DNA of 64,000 nt, taken from NCBI GenBank assembly GCA_003569705.1, contig BGOU01000010.1, positions 1 to 64,000 of the forward strand, in the 5' to 3' direction. The position numbers and the translations under genes were made by a program. The DNA comes from Nitrosarchaeum sp. GTDB lineage: Archaea; Thermoproteota; Nitrososphaeria; Nitrososphaerales; Nitrosopumilaceae. Of this stretch, positions 5,064 to 53,645 are shown piece by piece. Numbering within the stretch: the stretch's first letter is position 1; each line of letters opens with the position of its first letter. Below the pieces are notes generated by a model, which saw nothing but the letters and a program-made list of their open reading frames with translations, ran no database searches and was not told the origin of the DNA.

Positions 5064-5072
5064 TTTATATAC
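5064..5072 (+). promoter_or_regulatory. TATA box of the AbrB-phasin operon
   Basis: TTTATATAC is centred about 27 bases before the ATG at 5095, the spacing expected for a leaderless archaeal promoter with transcription starting at or next to the start codon. Confidence 0.6.
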
Positions 5073-5085
5073 CAACAAGTTCCTA

Positions 5086-5108
5086 TAATTACCAATGAGC
5101 GGTAATTA
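5086..5108. promoter_or_regulatory. Perfect inverted repeat across the start codon (candidate operator)
   Basis: Arms TAATTACC (5086-5093) and GGTAATTA (5101-5108) are exact reverse complements, with a 7-base spacer that contains the ATG. For a leaderless gene this places the palindrome on the transcription start, where a bound protein would block initiation. The left arm belongs to ATTACCAATG, which is also found before the second phasin gene (53190-53199). The AbrB-domain protein encoded here is the obvious candidate binder (inference). Confidence 0.55.
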
Positions 5109-5520
5109 CAACCAGTTTAATCCTTCAGAGATGTTCAAAGATTGGATTCAAAAAAATGGTCGTGCACAAGCTGAATTTATGAAAAACTTTGGCTCATTAA
5201 TGGCAACCCAAAATACTCAAACATTCAATCCTTTAGAAACTCTAAAAGAAGTATCTGATAATACAAGAAATGCTCAATCTGATTTAATGAAGAATGTGTC
5301 TTCTATGCAAAACAAAAGCATGGAGACGATGTTTCAGATTGGCCAAATGCTCCCATCTTTTATGAATTGGGGTGCTTACAAAACGACTGTCAGTAGTAAT
5401 GGCAGAATCTCGATTCCAGAGGCAGAACGTAATGCACTTGGATTAGGAGAAGGCGACTTGGTCCAAGTCATAGTCCTTCCAATAGCAAAAAAATCAAAAA
5501 ATAAGGAGGTGAAACAATGA
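5095..5520 (+). CDS. PhaR-like regulator: phasin-type helical N-terminus fused to AbrB DNA-binding domain
   Basis: A 141-residue protein in two parts. Residues 1-90 are amphipathic helices rich in Gln, Asn, Met and Phe, like a granule-binding phasin (MFKDWIQKNGRAQAEFMKNF). Residues 93-135 are a SpoVT/AbrB swapped-hairpin domain (TTVSSNGRISIPEAERNALG, then GDLVQVIVLPI). In the haloarchaeon Haloferax mediterranei an AbrB-type PhaR is encoded next to phasin PhaP, represses that operon and binds PHA granules (established knowledge). The arrangement here matches: phasin gene next, 4-base overlap, and a palindrome over the start codon. I infer a sensor that sits on the granule and leaves DNA when PHA accumulates. 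The basic C-terminal tail contains a strong GGAGGTG ribosome site for the next gene. Confidence 0.7.
   Translation: MSGNYNQFNPSEMFKDWIQKNGRAQAEFMKNFGSLMATQNTQTFNPLETLKEVSDNTRNAQSDLMKNVSSMQNKSMETMFQIGQMLPSFMNWGAYKTTVSSNGRISIPEAERNALGLGEGDLVQVIVLPIAKKSKNKEVKQ
5507..5513 (+). promoter_or_regulatory. Strong Shine-Dalgarno for phasin
   Basis: AAGGAGGTG lies just ahead of the ATG at 5517, inside the end of the preceding gene. It supports the ATG at 5517 and translation within an operon, whereas first genes here are mostly leaderless. Confidence 0.6.
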
Positions 5521-5942
5521 GTAAAAACGAACAAACACCGGGAACTAAAGATGTGTTTTCAGTTTATGAAGAAAACGTAGACAAACTATTCTCTGGTATT
5601 AGACATTCAGTACCACAGTATCATCAGTCAATTACTAATGTTCAGCAAGAATATTTGCAAGCATATGAAAATATTGTAGATTCTACAATCGCACTACAAA
5701 AAGAATATGCAAAAAAAGCAGGTATTGCAACTGACATCCCACAAGCAACACTAAAAGTAATTCATGATACTGCAGAAGAATTTGTTAAAGTAGCTTCAAT
5801 ACAGAACCAAATGACACTTGCAACAATGGATGCAACACAACAAAACATCAAGGCATTCAATGATAACGCAAAATCATTTGCTGATCTAAACAGAAACATT
5901 CTACAATCCTGGATCTCCGCATTCACCACAAAGAACAACTAG
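5517..5942 (+). CDS. Phasin-like PHA granule protein 1
   Basis: A 141-residue all-helical protein, starting DVFSVYEENVDKLFSGI and ending with the motif FADLNRNILQSWISAFTTKNN. It is a close paralogue of 53229-53645: the same DVF.VYE, QYHQSITN/KYYQSITD, KEYAKKAGI/KEIVNKAGI and DNAKxFADLNxNIxxSWI blocks. Length and composition (few aromatics, many Ala/Gln/Asn heptads) suit a phasin that coats PHA granules. It overlaps the AbrB-phasin gene by ATGA and faces phaC, only 30 bases away. This is family assignment by pattern and context, without a profile search. Confidence 0.7.
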   Translation: MSKNEQTPGTKDVFSVYEENVDKLFSGIRHSVPQYHQSITNVQQEYLQAYENIVDSTIALQKEYAKKAGIATDIPQATLKVIHDTAEEFVKVASIQNQMTLATMDATQQNIKAFNDNAKSFADLNRNILQSWISAFTTKNN

Positions 5943-5972: not shown

Positions 5973-7037
5973 TTATGATCTTTCAGCAAGCCATTTTCCT
6001 AGCTCTGGGAGTACCTTGGTTTGAGATAATGAACTAGCAATCATACCTACGTGGCCTGTTGGGTACATCTTTAATGTTTTATCTTCACTTCCAACTGCAT
6101 AATGAAGAGGCATACTGCATTCTGGTGATACCAGGTGGTCTCCAACTGCAACTTGTGTGAATAACGGCATGTCTATTTTCTTCAAATCTATGTGACTTCC
6201 TCCTACATACATTTTATTTTGAATTAACAGGTTATCTTGGTAAATATCTTTGATCCATTGTCTGAACAGTGCGCCTGGTATCGGCGGTGTATCTCCTAGC
6301 CATTTTTCCACTCTTAGGAAATTATCTACAAATTTTTTATTTTCAATGTTTTTGAAAAAATTCACGTATTTCTCAATTCCCTGCTCAAATGGTTTTAGTA
6401 CTGAAAAGCAGTAATACATGAATTCCGGAGGCATGTTTCCTATGGTTTCCACCATTTTATCTACGTCCATGTGCTTAGCTAAATTACTAATTACTGTAGT
6501 GTCTCGCCATCCGTCAATTACAGGAGCTGTTGCAATGTAATTTTTCACACTTTCTGGATGCAGTGTTGTGTACGCTGTTGCTATTGTAGCTCCAGTGCAA
6601 TACCCTTGCAATGATATTTTTTCTGTAGATGATTCATCTTTGATAAATTCCACACTGCTGTCTAAATATCCATTGACATAATCATCAAAATCTAAATATT
6701 TATCCATACTCGTTGGACTTCCCCAATCTAACATGTATACATCAAATCCCTGTAATACTAAATTTCTAACCCAACTTTTTTCTGGTTGTATATCCAAAAT
6801 ATGATATCTGTTAATCAATGCATATGAAATCAGTAATGGTGTTTTGTGTTGTTTCTCTGTAAGTGGTCTATAATGTAGTAATCTTGTTTTGTCTATCTCC
6901 TGTACTATATCATGTGGAGTTACCTCAAGACTAATTTCATCTGGGGCTGAAGCTAAATTAGGTGCGTCCATAATGTTTTTGCCAAACTTCATCAACTCTT
7001 CTATGAATTTAGGATCGAATTTTGATTCACTTTTCAT
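5973..7037 (-). CDS. phaC: Class III polyhydroxyalkanoate synthase subunit PhaC
   Basis: A 354-residue PHA polymerase that joins hydroxyacyl-CoA units into polyester. The lipase-like box carries the catalytic cysteine, GYCTGA (near residue 147). The acid is in VAVGDHLVSPE and the base in PTGHVGMIASS near the end. The size fits class III synthases (about 355 residues), which need PhaE, and phaE lies directly upstream with an 11-base overlap. A GGAGATG ribosome site precedes the ATG. Class III PhaC/PhaE pairs have been reported from other ammonia-oxidising archaea. The product would be a carbon store, probably built from C4 units related to the 3HP/4HB cycle (inference). Confidence 0.93.
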   Translation of the reverse strand: MKSESKFDPKFIEELMKFGKNIMDAPNLASAPDEISLEVTPHDIVQEIDKTRLLHYRPLTEKQHKTPLLISYALINRYHILDIQPEKSWVRNLVLQGFDVYMLDWGSPTSMDKYLDFDDYVNGYLDSSVEFIKDESSTEKISLQGYCTGATIATAYTTLHPESVKNYIATAPVIDGWRDTTVISNLAKHMDVDKMVETIGNMPPEFMYYCFSVLKPFEQGIEKYVNFFKNIENKKFVDNFLRVEKWLGDTPPIPGALFRQWIKDIYQDNLLIQNKMYVGGSHIDLKKIDMPLFTQVAVGDHLVSPECSMPLHYAVGSEDKTLKMYPTGHVGMIASSLSQTKVLPELGKWLAERS

Positions 7038-7623
7038 TTTTTACATCTCCTTCATTTTTTGCCTCTCTTTTCTTTTTTAATTCAATTTCCAATTTTGTAA
7101 CTCTTTTTTTAAGAGAATGCATTTCTTTGTACACTTCATCGATTTCTTCTTTACTTGGCAAGTTTACTGATTGTAAAATCACATTTGAAATATTGCTCCA
7201 GTGTTTTGTAAGTTCAAGCTCTTTTGAAACTAACTTCCCATAGTTTACTCCAAATTTTTCTGAATCAAATAATTCTGTAAAATCATTATCAAAAATATCT
7301 ATCCATATTCTCTTAAATGACTCCATTTGTTCTACGTCATGTGGCACGTCAGGTGCTTTCAAATTGACTTTCTTTTGTGCATCGCTCCACGTTTCTGATA
7401 ATTGCTTATAGTATTCTGTTACAAATTTGTTAAATTCCATTAAACTCTCATTTATCTGGATTAATTCAGTTGAAATTTTCTTAGAATTTGAAGCAAATGC
7501 ACGCATAGGGCCCATCGAAGTCAAAGCCTGTGGCTTGCTTGCCATTAGATGGATGATGTCTGTCCAGAACAAGGAAAGATGCTTGTAATAATCTGTAGCA
7601 TCTTTTGGTGATTGCGTTTCCAC
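7027..7623 (-). CDS. phaE: PHA synthase subunit PhaE
   Basis: A 198-residue helical partner of class III PhaC. It contains the AxDVPHDVEQMESFKRIWIDIFDNDF-type central region and PSKEEIDEVYKEMHSLKKRV near the C-terminus, both typical of PhaE, and a Lys/Glu-rich tail. It is shorter than bacterial PhaE (300 or more residues) but like the archaeal ones. It overlaps the start of phaC, so the two are translationally coupled. The promoter lies in the 53-base space shared with the DUF6659-like gene on the other strand, and no ATTACC motif was seen there. Confidence 0.85.
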   Translation of the reverse strand: METQSPKDATDYYKHLSLFWTDIIHLMASKPQALTSMGPMRAFASNSKKISTELIQINESLMEFNKFVTEYYKQLSETWSDAQKKVNLKAPDVPHDVEQMESFKRIWIDIFDNDFTELFDSEKFGVNYGKLVSKELELTKHWSNISNVILQSVNLPSKEEIDEVYKEMHSLKKRVTKLEIELKKKREAKNEGDVKNEK

Positions 7624-8870: not shown

Positions 8871-9782
8871 CTAATTTTGAAGCATTTTTCTTAAACCTGC
8901 ACATCTGTTTCTAATTGTCACCTCTGTGACTCCAGATGCAATTGAAATATCTTTTTGTGATTTTACTTCACCCGTGCTAATACATGCCAAATATAACGCT
9001 GCAGCTGCTATTCCCATAGGGTCTTTTCCAGCAACCATTCCTATCTTTTTTGCTTGCTCTAGTATTGCAACAGCTTTTCTTTTGCTCTTTTCACCTAATT
9101 CTGCAATGCTTGCAATTCTAGATACTACTTTTACCGGATCTACTACTGGCATTTTTAATTCCAGCTCTCTGAAAATTAATCTATAACATCTTGCAACATC
9201 TTTTCTTCTAATATTGATTCCATCTGCAACATCATCCAAAGTTCTAGGTGTCTGTGTATTTCTACATGATGCATAAAGACATGCTGCAACTAGGCCTTGA
9301 ATGGAACGACCTCTTACAAGTTTTTTCTCCATTGCCTTTCGGTAAATGTAAGCAGCTTTTTCAACTACTGCATCTGTCAGTGCAAGTTTATCTTTTAATT
9401 TATCCATTTCATTTAGTGCTAGTCTTAGATTTCTATCTGCAGAAGAATGTGCTTGTGTCCTACTATCCCATGTTCTTAATCTCTCAATCGTACTCTTCAT
9501 TGATGATGTAAGTGGTTTTCCAGTAGAATCCTTGTTGGCAGCACCAATTACTGTTGATAATCCCATGTCATGCATCGTCAATGATGTTCCAGCACCAACT
9601 CTGGTTCTGTTTGTATCGTCATTTGCAAATGAACGCCATTCTGCACCTGTCTCTGAAATTTTATCTGAAACTACAAAACCGCATTTTCCACAAAATAATT
9701 CTCCAGTTGTTTCATCTGTTACCATTTTTTTATCACCACATGAAGGGCATTTTGGTCTGGAGACAACTGTACTCTTAAGCAT
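8871..9782 (-). CDS. tfb: Transcription initiation factor IIB (TFB)
   Basis: A 303-residue TFB that bridges TBP, the BRE element and RNA polymerase. The N-terminal zinc ribbon is CPSCGDKKM ... CGKCG (residues about 12-35), then the B-finger WRSFANDD and two cyclin repeats (RNLRLALNEMDKL ... YASCRNTQTPRTLDDVA and KAVAILEQAKKIGMVAGKDP ... VTEVTIRNRCAGLRK). The frame is open 12 codons further up to 9818, but ATG at 9782 gives the normal spacing to the zinc ribbon. Several TFB copies are usual in this group. The neighbours do not suggest a special regulon. Confidence 0.95.
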   Translation of the reverse strand: MLKSTVVSRPKCPSCGDKKMVTDETTGELFCGKCGFVVSDKISETGAEWRSFANDDTNRTRVGAGTSLTMHDMGLSTVIGAANKDSTGKPLTSSMKSTIERLRTWDSRTQAHSSADRNLRLALNEMDKLKDKLALTDAVVEKAAYIYRKAMEKKLVRGRSIQGLVAACLYASCRNTQTPRTLDDVADGINIRRKDVARCYRLIFRELELKMPVVDPVKVVSRIASIAELGEKSKRKAVAILEQAKKIGMVAGKDPMGIAAAALYLACISTGEVKSQKDISIASGVTEVTIRNRCAGLRKMLQN

Positions 9783-9949
9783 AATAATCCAAAATTCAGC
9801 ATTTAGCTTATTATTCATTTTACATAACTTCTGCAGGTTAATTGTGTGTAGGTTAAGCTAATGCTCATTCTAATTCTATAGATTTGGAATAATGCTCAAT
9901 AATAATTAGGAGTGACTAATTTTTTATTTAGTTTTTTTAATTTGAGAAA

Positions 9950-35243: not shown

Positions 35244-35506
35244 TGATGCAGTGCCAGTACCTATTGCATTTATTGCTGAAACTCTGTAATTGTATTGGGC
35301 ATTATCTGCAAGACCAACACTGCTGTATGTCGTACTAGTAGAGCCAGTGTTTGCTACTATGGTAGAGAATACACCACCTACTGGTGACTCTCTTTCTATC
35401 TTGTAACCAGTAATTGTAGAACCACCATTGTATGGTGCAGTCCATGATAGATTGATTTGAGATGTACTAATGGCAGTTGCAGTAAATCCAGTTACCTGCG
35501 ATGGAA
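35244..35506 (-). repeat. FN3-coding direct repeat, copy 1 (300-bp period)
   Basis: About 263 bases that recur at 35544-35806 with only a few mismatches. The repeat encodes one FN3 domain (IPSQVTGFTATAISTSQINL ...). Near identity at DNA level implies recent duplication or gene conversion. Confidence 0.85.
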
Positions 35507-35543
35507 TGGTTTGGATTATTGGTGTAGTTGCATTTGCTGGTGC

Positions 35544-35806
35544 AGATGCAGTGCCAGTACCTATTGCATTTATTGCTGAAACTCTGTAATTGTATTGGGC
35601 ATTATCTGCAAGACCAACACTGCTGTATGTCGTACTAGTAGAGCCAGTGTTTGCTACAATGGTAGAGAATCCACCACCTACTGGTGACTCTCTTTCTATC
35701 TTGTAACCAGTAATTGTAGAACCACCATTGTATGGTGCAGTCCATGATAGATTGATTTGAGATGTACTAATGGCAGTTGCAGTAAATCCAGTTACCTGCG
35801 ATGGAA
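35544..35806 (-). repeat. FN3-coding direct repeat, copy 2
   Basis: Second copy of the FN3 unit, exactly 300 bases from the first. One visible protein difference is GGFSTIV here against GGVFSTIV in copy 1 (Gly-Gly-Phe versus Gly-Val-Phe). Confidence 0.85.
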
Positions 35807-36537
35807 TAGCGTTAGGAACTTCAAATTCTGCCCATGATACAGAAACGGAATCTGTTTTTGTAACAGTAGTAGAACATGTGGAAGCACAACTTGCAGTAAA
35901 TTCTAAACGTAGATTTGTGTAATCAGTAATTGCGTTTGCTTGAGCTGTTGTAAGCGTTTGTGTTGATAAAGTAAATGATGATGGTAGGGGGGGATGATTG
36001 CGTCCATGATGCAATTTGTGTCGTACCTTGTAGCAGTCTTATAACAAGTGATGGACTGTTGCTCCCAAGTGCATCTTCTTTGTAGGTGTATCTGATTATA
36101 TGACCCGTGCTTAGATTTGGATCAGTCACATCACTGATTGTAAAAGTAACAACGTTTGTTTGACTTTTGGCAAGCTTGGATGATTTTGTATGGTCTGCAT
36201 CATTTCGTACTGTTTCATCGATTTCTGTATAAGACCCGCTTGCCCAATTTCCAGACGCTACACCATCTGGTCTTTCATATTGTAATGCAAATGTAGGATG
36301 TACAAAACCAATTAAGCCGAGTCCAACTATAACCATAAACAGCATACACCATTTTGACTCTGGAATTATTTTCATGATCTCTGAAACCTGATTATTGTCA
36401 CACCCCATTGTTATCAAGGATGATTTTTTGTATAAAAAGACACATGGAAATTATCAGCCATGAATGATTCCATTGTGGAACAAGTCATAGAAATCATGAT
36501 TATTTCTCATAATCTTTTTTATTCATTAGCGAATTCT

Positions 36538-38289: not shown

Positions 38290-38672
38290 CAAGTGCTGTT
38301 TGTTTTAGACTCTCTGCGGTAACACTTGCTGTTTGTTTTAGACTCTCTGCGGTAACACTTGCTGTTTGTTTTAGACTCTCTGCGGTAACACTTGCTTTTT
38401 GTTTTAGACTCTCTGCGGTAACACTTGCTGTTTGTTTTAGACTCTCTGCGGTAACATTTGCTGTTTGTTTTAGACTCTCTGCGGTAACACTTGCTTTTTG
38501 TTTTAGACTCTCTGCGGTAACACTTGCTGTTTGTTTTAGACTCTCTGTGGTAACACTTGCTGTTTGTTTTAGACTCTCTGCGGTAACACTTGCTTTTTGT
38601 TTTAGACTCTCTGCGGTAACACTTGCTTTTTGTTTTAGACTCTCTGTGGTAACACTTGCTTTTTGTTTTATA
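38290..38672 (-). repeat. 33-bp tandem repeats (about 11 units)
   Basis: Eleven in-frame units of 33 bases, each containing GACTCTCTGCGGTAACACTT on the + strand, encode TAESLKQ(T/K)ASV. Differences are single bases (T/K, A/T). There are no unique spacers, so it is not CRISPR. Such arrays change copy number by slippage without breaking the frame. Confidence 0.9.
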
Positions 38673-52827: not shown

Positions 52828-53109
52828 CTATAGTTCCAATCCAAAGGATTCAGCAATACTTGAGAATTTCAAATAAGATTCTAGATACTGTCTTCCTTTT
52901 TCAGTTATTACAAATGTATTTTTGCCATCAAATTCTATTTTATTAATTAATCCAGAACCTGTTAAATTTTCCAAAAATTTTGATAGTCTAGAATGTGATA
53001 AATTTACCTTTGTTAATAGTCGTGTTGTCTTTATTCCTTCTTGTCCAGAGTCGTTTGTAGCACTAAGAAGATCAGATATTATCTGCATACTTGTTCTGTA
53101 GATTATCAT
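52828..53109 (-). CDS. Winged-helix transcriptional regulator
   Basis: A 93-residue single-domain winged helix: MQIISDLLSATNDSGQEGIK, TTRLLTKVNLSHSRLSKFLE (recognition helix), NLTGSGLINKIEFDGKNTFV (wing) and ITEKGRQYLESYLKF. Many such small regulators exist in this group. It is divergent from the second phasin gene. A perfect palindrome (53132-53153) covers its own promoter region at leaderless distance, so it is probably autoregulated and may control the phasin. Confidence 0.8.
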   Translation of the reverse strand: MIIYRTSMQIISDLLSATNDSGQEGIKTTRLLTKVNLSHSRLSKFLENLTGSGLINKIEFDGKNTFVITEKGRQYLESYLKFSSIAESFGLEL

Positions 53110-53131: not shown

Positions 53132-53153
53132 TTATAACTATTGGTAGTTATAA
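53132..53153. promoter_or_regulatory. Perfect inverted repeat between regulator and phasin 2
   Basis: Arms TTATAACTA (53132-53140) and TAGTTATAA (53145-53153) are exact reverse complements around TTGG. The left arm, read on the minus strand, doubles as a TATA-like TTATAA 27 bases before the regulator's start codon, so binding would shut off the regulator. A winged-helix dimer site of this length is typical. Confidence 0.6.
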
Positions 53154-53160
53154 CAAACTA

Positions 53161-53200
53161 TTACCATTTACTACCATTCATTACCATTTATTACCAATGT
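53161..53200 (+). promoter_or_regulatory. Four 10-bp tandem repeats before the phasin 2 TATA box
   Basis: TTACCATTTA, CTACCATTCA, TTACCATTTA and TTACCAATGT follow one another exactly. A 10-bp period puts each TACCA on the same face of the helix, fitting cooperative binding of an activator or repressor. The last unit contains ATTACCAATG, shared with the operator at 5088-5097. Confidence 0.65.
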
Positions 53201-53209
53201 ATATATAAT
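53201..53209 (+). promoter_or_regulatory. TATA box of phasin 2
   Basis: ATATATAAT lies about 25 bases before the ATG at 53229 and directly follows the tandem repeats. Confidence 0.65.
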
Positions 53210-53228: not shown

Positions 53229-53645
53229 ATGAGTAAAACTCTAGATACAAAAGATGTCTTTGGCGTATACGAACAAAACATCATTAGCAGCTTTGCTACT
53301 ATCAATAGAGAAGTACCAAAATACTACCAATCCATTACCGACCTACAACATCAATGCATCCAAACCTGTGAAAATACAATGAAATCTGTACTATCAGTAC
53401 AAAAAGAAATTGTAAACAAGGCAGGAATTAATGCAAACATTCCTGATGCAGCACTAAGTACTATCAGGGATACCAGCGATGGAATCAACAAGGTATATTC
53501 TGTACAAAATCAAATAGTTCAAACAGCTCTTGATGCAACAAAACAAAATATCCAGACATTTAACGACAATGCTAAAGCATTTGCCGATCTAAACAAAAAC
53601 ATAATCCACTCTTGGATAAACGTATTTACACCAAGAAACAACTAG
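53229..53645 (+). CDS. Phasin-like PHA granule protein 2
   Basis: A 138-residue helical protein, a paralogue of 5517-5942 along its whole length: DVFGVYEQNIISSFATI, VPKYYQSITDLQHQCIQTCE, IVNKAGINANIPDAALSTI and the end FADLNKNIIHSWINVFTPRNN. It should coat PHA granules or related inclusions. It lies 46 kb from the phaEC locus and has its own promoter with a repeat array and divergent regulator, so its control may differ from phasin 1. Cysteines in QCIQTCE are not present in the first copy. Confidence 0.72.
   Translation: MSKTLDTKDVFGVYEQNIISSFATINREVPKYYQSITDLQHQCIQTCENTMKSVLSVQKEIVNKAGINANIPDAALSTIRDTSDGINKVYSVQNQIVQTALDATKQNIQTFNDNAKAFADLNKNIIHSWINVFTPRNN

Follow-up and report, generated by a model that had tools for sequence, protein, structure and literature searches.

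What does the short stretch between a winged-helix gene and a phasin-like gene do in this Nitrosarchaeum contig (Nitrosopumilaceae), and does it hold the sites of one DNA-binding protein or of two? Ammonia-oxidizing archaea are abundant but hard to manipulate genetically, and to our knowledge few operators are known in them. The window analysed here is the whole stretch of 64,000 nucleotides. An earlier note on it had described a dense regulatory block between the two genes, with a palindrome over one promoter and a tandem array at the other, and had proposed that two different proteins may act there. The following features were found, with coordinates counted in the window:

52828-53109, minus strand: divergent winged-helix gene (93 aa; Pfam HTH_45, 58.3 against a cut-off of 25.5)
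53109 (minus) to 53229 (plus): intergenic stretch of 120 bp between the divergent ORF starts
53132-53137, minus strand: TTATAA, read by consensus only as the TATA box of the winged-helix gene; distance to the ATG about 25 nt
53132-53153, no strand: palindrome TTATAACTA-TTGG-TAGTTATAA, with perfect 9-bp arms and a 4-nt loop
53142-53146, minus strand: inverted box (TGGTA on the plus strand, TACCA on the minus strand), 5 nt upstream of the TATAA of the winged-helix gene
53152-53156, plus strand: degenerate box AACAA, a fifth slot in the same 10-bp phase
53162-53196, plus strand: candidate operator array, TACCA at 53162, 53172, 53182 and 53192, with exact 10-bp spacing
53200-53208, plus strand: TATATATAA, read by consensus only as the TATA box of the phasin gene; distance to the ATG about 25 nt
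53229-53645, plus strand: phasin-like gene for a protein of 138 aa, with 52% identity to the phasin at 5517

Most of what had been described is present: the palindrome, the phasin TATA box, the position of the block between the two genes, and the array on the upstream side of the phasin TATA box. The last box ends 3 bp before this TATA box, and the array adjoins the TATA/BRE region. The boxes are in helical phase, with a start-to-start spacing of 10 bp. The description as four exact 10-bp repeats was correct for TACCA and its spacing only, since the surrounding 10-mers differ (ATTACCATTT, ACTACCATTC, ATTACCATTT and ATTACCAATG). Slots equivalent to that of AACAA contain AACCA or TACCA in other genomes. 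The distance from the start of the inverted box to that of the first direct box is exactly 20 bp, and all boxes lie on one 10-bp grid. Read on its minus strand, the window gives ACTACCAATAGTTATAAG, which is the phasin-type layout of box, gap and TATA facing the winged-helix gene. Both TATA boxes lie so close to the start codons that leaderless mRNAs would be expected. Of 20,000 dinucleotide shuffles of the 120-bp stretch, none gave four TACCA spaced by 10 bp, while 186 (about 1%) gave a perfect 9-bp inverted repeat. Most likely, the block is a bidirectional promoter with an operator made of TGGNA-type (TACCA/TGGTA) boxes on a single 10-bp grid.

Under the earlier proposal, a second protein might act at the palindrome. 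Its arms are already imperfect in L013, the nearest relative (TTATAAGTA-TTGG-TAGTTATAA), and perfect arms are absent elsewhere; only TTATA and the inverted TGGT box are conserved within it. It reads as a composite of the minus-strand TATA box, the inverted box and a non-conserved right arm. Because the arms are not conserved and such a repeat is expected by chance at the frequency given above, the palindrome was rejected as an independent operator; what it holds is one inverted box of the same type as the array. The inverted-box layout is also found at six other loci (L119, L124, L125, L139, L143 and L144), and winged-helix/phasin pairs in other genera repeat it, for example as TACCAATG-TTTATAAA. 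One binding specificity acting on both promoters would explain the block more simply than two.

Which genes carry the array was examined in the genome of the window and in its relatives. In a Pfam search, the product of 53229-53645 gave no family above its cut-off. Elsewhere in the 1.46-Mb genome, three exact boxes occur only at C7:207120, directly upstream of a paralogous phasin-like gene, and the combination TACCA-N3-5-TATATA is found only at the two standalone phasin promoters. Among relatives fetched by protein similarity and labelled Nitrosarchaeum and Nitrosopumilus, the boxes are present at phasins down to 45% identity, and the DNA further upstream is unrelated. We scanned 101 genomes of the family with the pattern TACCA-N5-TACCA-N3-5-TATATA and, as a control, with the reversed pattern. 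The pattern, itself derived from the same phasin upstream sequences, was found at 34 distinct places in 29 genomes, against one match of the reversed control. All 34 places lie directly upstream of a phasin gene; in the last of them (L043) the contig ends shortly after the start codon, and the remaining codons match a phasin N-terminus.

The upstream regions of 78 standalone phasin-like genes were then read, 38 strong and 40 weaker. An ACCA box stands at the TATA box in 38/38 of the best-scoring promoters, a count that is descriptive, since the cut follows the HMM score rank and was set after the sequences had been seen. The gap from TACCA to TATA is 3-5 nt in 37 of these 38, and there are 55 TACCA pairs at +10 where shuffles give 0.055. 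More independent tests are the reversed-pattern control and a second family. When 300 genomes of the class were scanned, the pattern was found in one further family (f3), where 16 of 20 sampled matches precede phasin-like ORFs, some of them weak profile matches; three matches look like chance and one is ambiguous. The window is AT-rich and many low-score tandem repeats are found in it (43 rows), and the array could be supposed to be a neutral repeat of this kind; its box, spacing and position, however, are conserved before phasins in two families next to unrelated upstream DNA. The neutral reading was rejected by this conservation, and its probability is close to nil. The question of conservation in relatives, raised with the first description of the block, can thus be answered: the box spacing is kept across genera and in the second family. 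We regard as sound the reading of the array as a phasin-specific, TATA-abutting operator of AbrB type that is conserved across ammonia-oxidizing archaea. No description of this element was found in the open-licence literature searched.

Variants of the element were also seen. Locus L138 has TGGCA, TGGCA, TGCCA, TACCA and TACCA on a single grid, which shows that the fourth letter of TGGNA can vary, while most other loci keep T. In genus g17 the phasin promoters (L165-L169, L175) contain TACCAAATATTTATATACCA followed by TTGGTTGTAATAACCAATGG and have no upstream array; these boxes and the inverted pair downstream of TATA appear to be a rearranged version of the operator. In genus g6 the phasin promoters L129, L131 and L136 have an extra TACCA past TATA, some 22 bp downstream from the last of the upstream boxes, and the AbrB-phasin promoters of this genus have boxes on both sides of TATA. 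Genome G051 has 11 phasin-like matches, several with arrays, and this set is a local family expansion.

The close association with TATA would also be found if the boxes were a dedicated core-promoter or activator element, recognized for example by one TFB isoform, that gives phasin promoters their strength with no sensing of granules involved. The last box adjoins TATA and overlaps the BRE position in 38/38 promoters read, and a TFB-like gene (8871-9818, zinc-ribbon N-terminus read by eye) lies at most 1 kb from the PHA cluster described below. However, the boxes reach up to several helical turns upstream, and in some genera, as at the AbrB-phasin gene, they lie downstream of TATA, an arrangement that does not match a BRE; in addition, no other promoter of the genome has TACCA-N3-5-TATATA. 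This explanation is very unlikely.

The sequence of the boxes points to a family of proteins. On the other strand, TACCA-N5-TACCA is TGGTA-N5-TGGTA, with TGGNA boxes 5 bp apart, and fits the published AbrB consensus TGGNA-N5-TGGNA (PMC11497800); a bipartite TGGNA motif obtained for AbrB by ChIP-seq is also cited in PMC11135676. When the window array is taken from its minus strand, its motif and spacing are those of the Bacillus AbrB sites. In Bacillus, AbrB acts as a global transition-state regulator and has its DNA-binding domain at the N-terminus, whereas the thaumarchaeal AbrB-phasin has this domain at its C-terminal end, after a phasin-like part, and the thaumarchaeal arrays, of up to four or more boxes, stand at a narrow set of genes. 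The AbrB-phasin is encoded in a PHA cluster of the same window, at 4.2-8.1 kb:

5070-5106, plus strand: boxes of the AbrB-phasin promoter, TACCA at 5070 (just past TATA) and 5090 (joined to the start codon)
5095-5520, plus strand: AbrB-phasin gene, helical N-terminal part and C-terminal AbrB domain; proposed binder (archaeal PhaR)
5517-5942, plus strand: phasin gene in an operon with the AbrB-phasin, its start overlapping the AbrB-phasin stop
5973-7623, minus strand: phaC and phaE (class III PHA synthase), on the other strand relative to the AbrB-phasin gene

The C-terminal AbrB-like domain matches TIGR01439 over residues 96-127 of 141 (32.4 bits, cut-off 28.3), and the AbrB part alone finds solved relatives by sequence. 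The AlphaFold model of the whole protein is of low confidence (pLDDT 53). The N-terminus is predicted to be phasin-like and helical, and its binding to PHA granules is putative. Many genera of the window's family have boxes at the AbrB-phasin promoter, for example ATTACCA-ATGAG-TGGTAAT, which extends into the start codon, while in the second family the AbrB-phasin promoters are mostly without boxes. In the window, the box at 5090 lies in ATTACCA-ATGAG-CGGTAAT, which has a single mismatch to a dyad; relatives have this dyad in perfect form. The dyad TTACCA-N5-TGGTAA is found at many AbrB-phasin start sites and also at unrelated places, and was therefore counted only as support.

The dyad ATTACCA-ATGAN-TGGTAAT spans the AbrB-phasin start codon in the window (5088-5106) and at L077-L105, L256, L257, L259-L261, L276, L277 and L281. 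The residues under it, Gly3 and Asn4, are invariant in the alignment of the AbrB-phasin family, so that constraints on DNA and on protein may be entangled here.

Across the 101 genomes, 82 have both AbrB-phasin and phasin, 18 have neither and one has phasin only (Fisher P 5e-19, without correction for phylogeny). In the near-complete genome G041 a phasin and an array were found and AbrB-phasin was not detected. In the second family, 14/14 pattern-bearing genomes encode AbrB-phasin. The AbrB-phasin, already named as a possible binder when the block was first described, is a good candidate on these grounds. Two other AbrB-domain proteins of the genome (C2:24867 and C3:193228) are above the AbrB family cut-off, and the site fits AbrB proteins generally, so either might bind the array instead. 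No genomic link of these two to phasins was found, however, and a place in the PHA cluster, fusion to a phasin-like part and boxes at the gene's promoter are each found for the AbrB-phasin only; a role of either of the two at the array is highly improbable.

The main rival to the AbrB-phasin is the neighbour of the phasin-like gene. The winged-helix protein, or its universal paralog, could bind the TACCA boxes and regulate both the phasin and itself, the AbrB-phasin being then only a granule protein. The winged-helix gene is the divergent neighbour of array-bearing phasins at about 10 loci in several genera, most of which have a box at the TATA of the winged-helix gene, and the promoter of the universal copy has a GGTAATACC-like site just upstream of TATA. 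However, most array-bearing phasins have no winged-helix neighbour, and the protein is encoded in 101/101 family genomes, including the 18 with neither phasin nor array. In phasin-less genomes the site of the universal copy varies to GAGTAATACTC; it is no TACCA array, and we know of no TGGNA preference in the winged-helix family. Its universal presence and the different promoter of its paralog make the winged-helix protein the weaker candidate, and its control of the array is unlikely.

The winged-helix gene of the block is a paralog of this universal copy (G000 C1:124525, 85% identical). Against the profile NF053610 of Sso10a-type chromatin proteins its product scored 55.9 bits, below the cut-off of 60. 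Across the family, the promoter of the universal copy contains a strongly conserved block, TATTTATCTGATCTGAAT..GGTAATACCCTTATAT (L226-L254, L302; G000 C1:124525), which reads GAGTAATACTCTTATAT in phasin-less genomes. This block looks like a separate, unexplained operator.

For the AbrB-phasin, the closest known system is the haloarchaeal PhaR, described in PMC9049629 as a repressor of its own gene that has an AbrB domain at its C-terminus and four tandem repeats in its promoter. The AbrB domain of the window is 67% identical to Haloferax larsenii PhaR over 36 residues. The H. larsenii phaRP promoter contains TACCA-N5-TGCCA-N5-TGGTA-N4-TGGGA, that is, four TGGNA boxes 9-10 bp apart (P 0.0005 by shuffle). 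The array was not seen in the other two of the three haloarchaeal phaRP promoters read, so that the kinship of the thaumarchaeal array with the PhaR operator is suggestive and not proven. The phaRP operon of Haloferax mediterranei and its PhaR were reportedly studied by Cai et al. in 2015, work summarised in PMC9049629; the phaRP sequence was not found in the plasmid collection. Both systems have a C-terminal AbrB domain, a gene followed directly by a phasin gene and close to phaEC, and tandem repeats in the promoter. Unlike in haloarchaeal phaRP, arrays of the window type are also present at unlinked phasin genes, adjoin TATA and lie in a bidirectional promoter; phaEC of the window is on the opposite strand. 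Bacterial PhaR, as far as we know, has neither a DNA-binding domain nor an operator related to AbrB. The likeness to PhaR of Cupriavidus and PhaQ of Bacillus megaterium is limited to the proposed logic, that of a PHA-responsive, autoregulated repressor of phasin genes with promoters of their own (PMC9049629).

We consider it probable that the array is a PhaR-type operator bound by the AbrB-phasin, with granule formation titrating the repressor and inducing phasins. When PHA granules are absent, the AbrB-phasin would occupy the boxes, which recur once per helical turn; binding would probably be cooperative and would block the access of TBP and TFB. The phasin genes, and in many genera the operon of the AbrB-phasin itself, would be kept low. 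As granules grow, the phasin-like half would draw the AbrB-phasin onto their surface and the boxes would become empty, so that phasins would be made in proportion to granule surface. The protein on the boxes may also activate instead of repress. The phaE promoter of the window has no TACCA box, which fits a control of the coat proteins and not of polymer synthesis. On a wider scale, one can imagine a dedicated PHA-granule regulon of ammonia-oxidizing archaea. Its sensor of free granule surface would be a fusion of phasin-like helices and an AbrB domain, which would act on several unlinked phasin genes by way of helix-phased TGGNA arrays placed at TATA, and the site grammar would be common to Bacillus AbrB, haloarchaeal PhaR and thaumarchaeal AbrB-phasin; for this wider proposal we see the case as evenly balanced.

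The operator is defined to the base and conserved over two families, its targets are coat proteins of PHA granules, and there is one candidate binder. Together these make the control of carbon storage directly testable in vitro. The AbrB site grammar known from Bacillus can here also be recognized in archaeal promoters.

Elsewhere in the window, two tandem repeats with nearly identical units lie inside genes, one at 35245-35807 (300-bp period, 99%) and one at 38294-38670 (33-bp period in 11 copies, 97%), the latter coding for a ERERVEAENLIE-type repeat. Both are within a stretch of about 32-46 kb that holds several unfamiliar ORFs.
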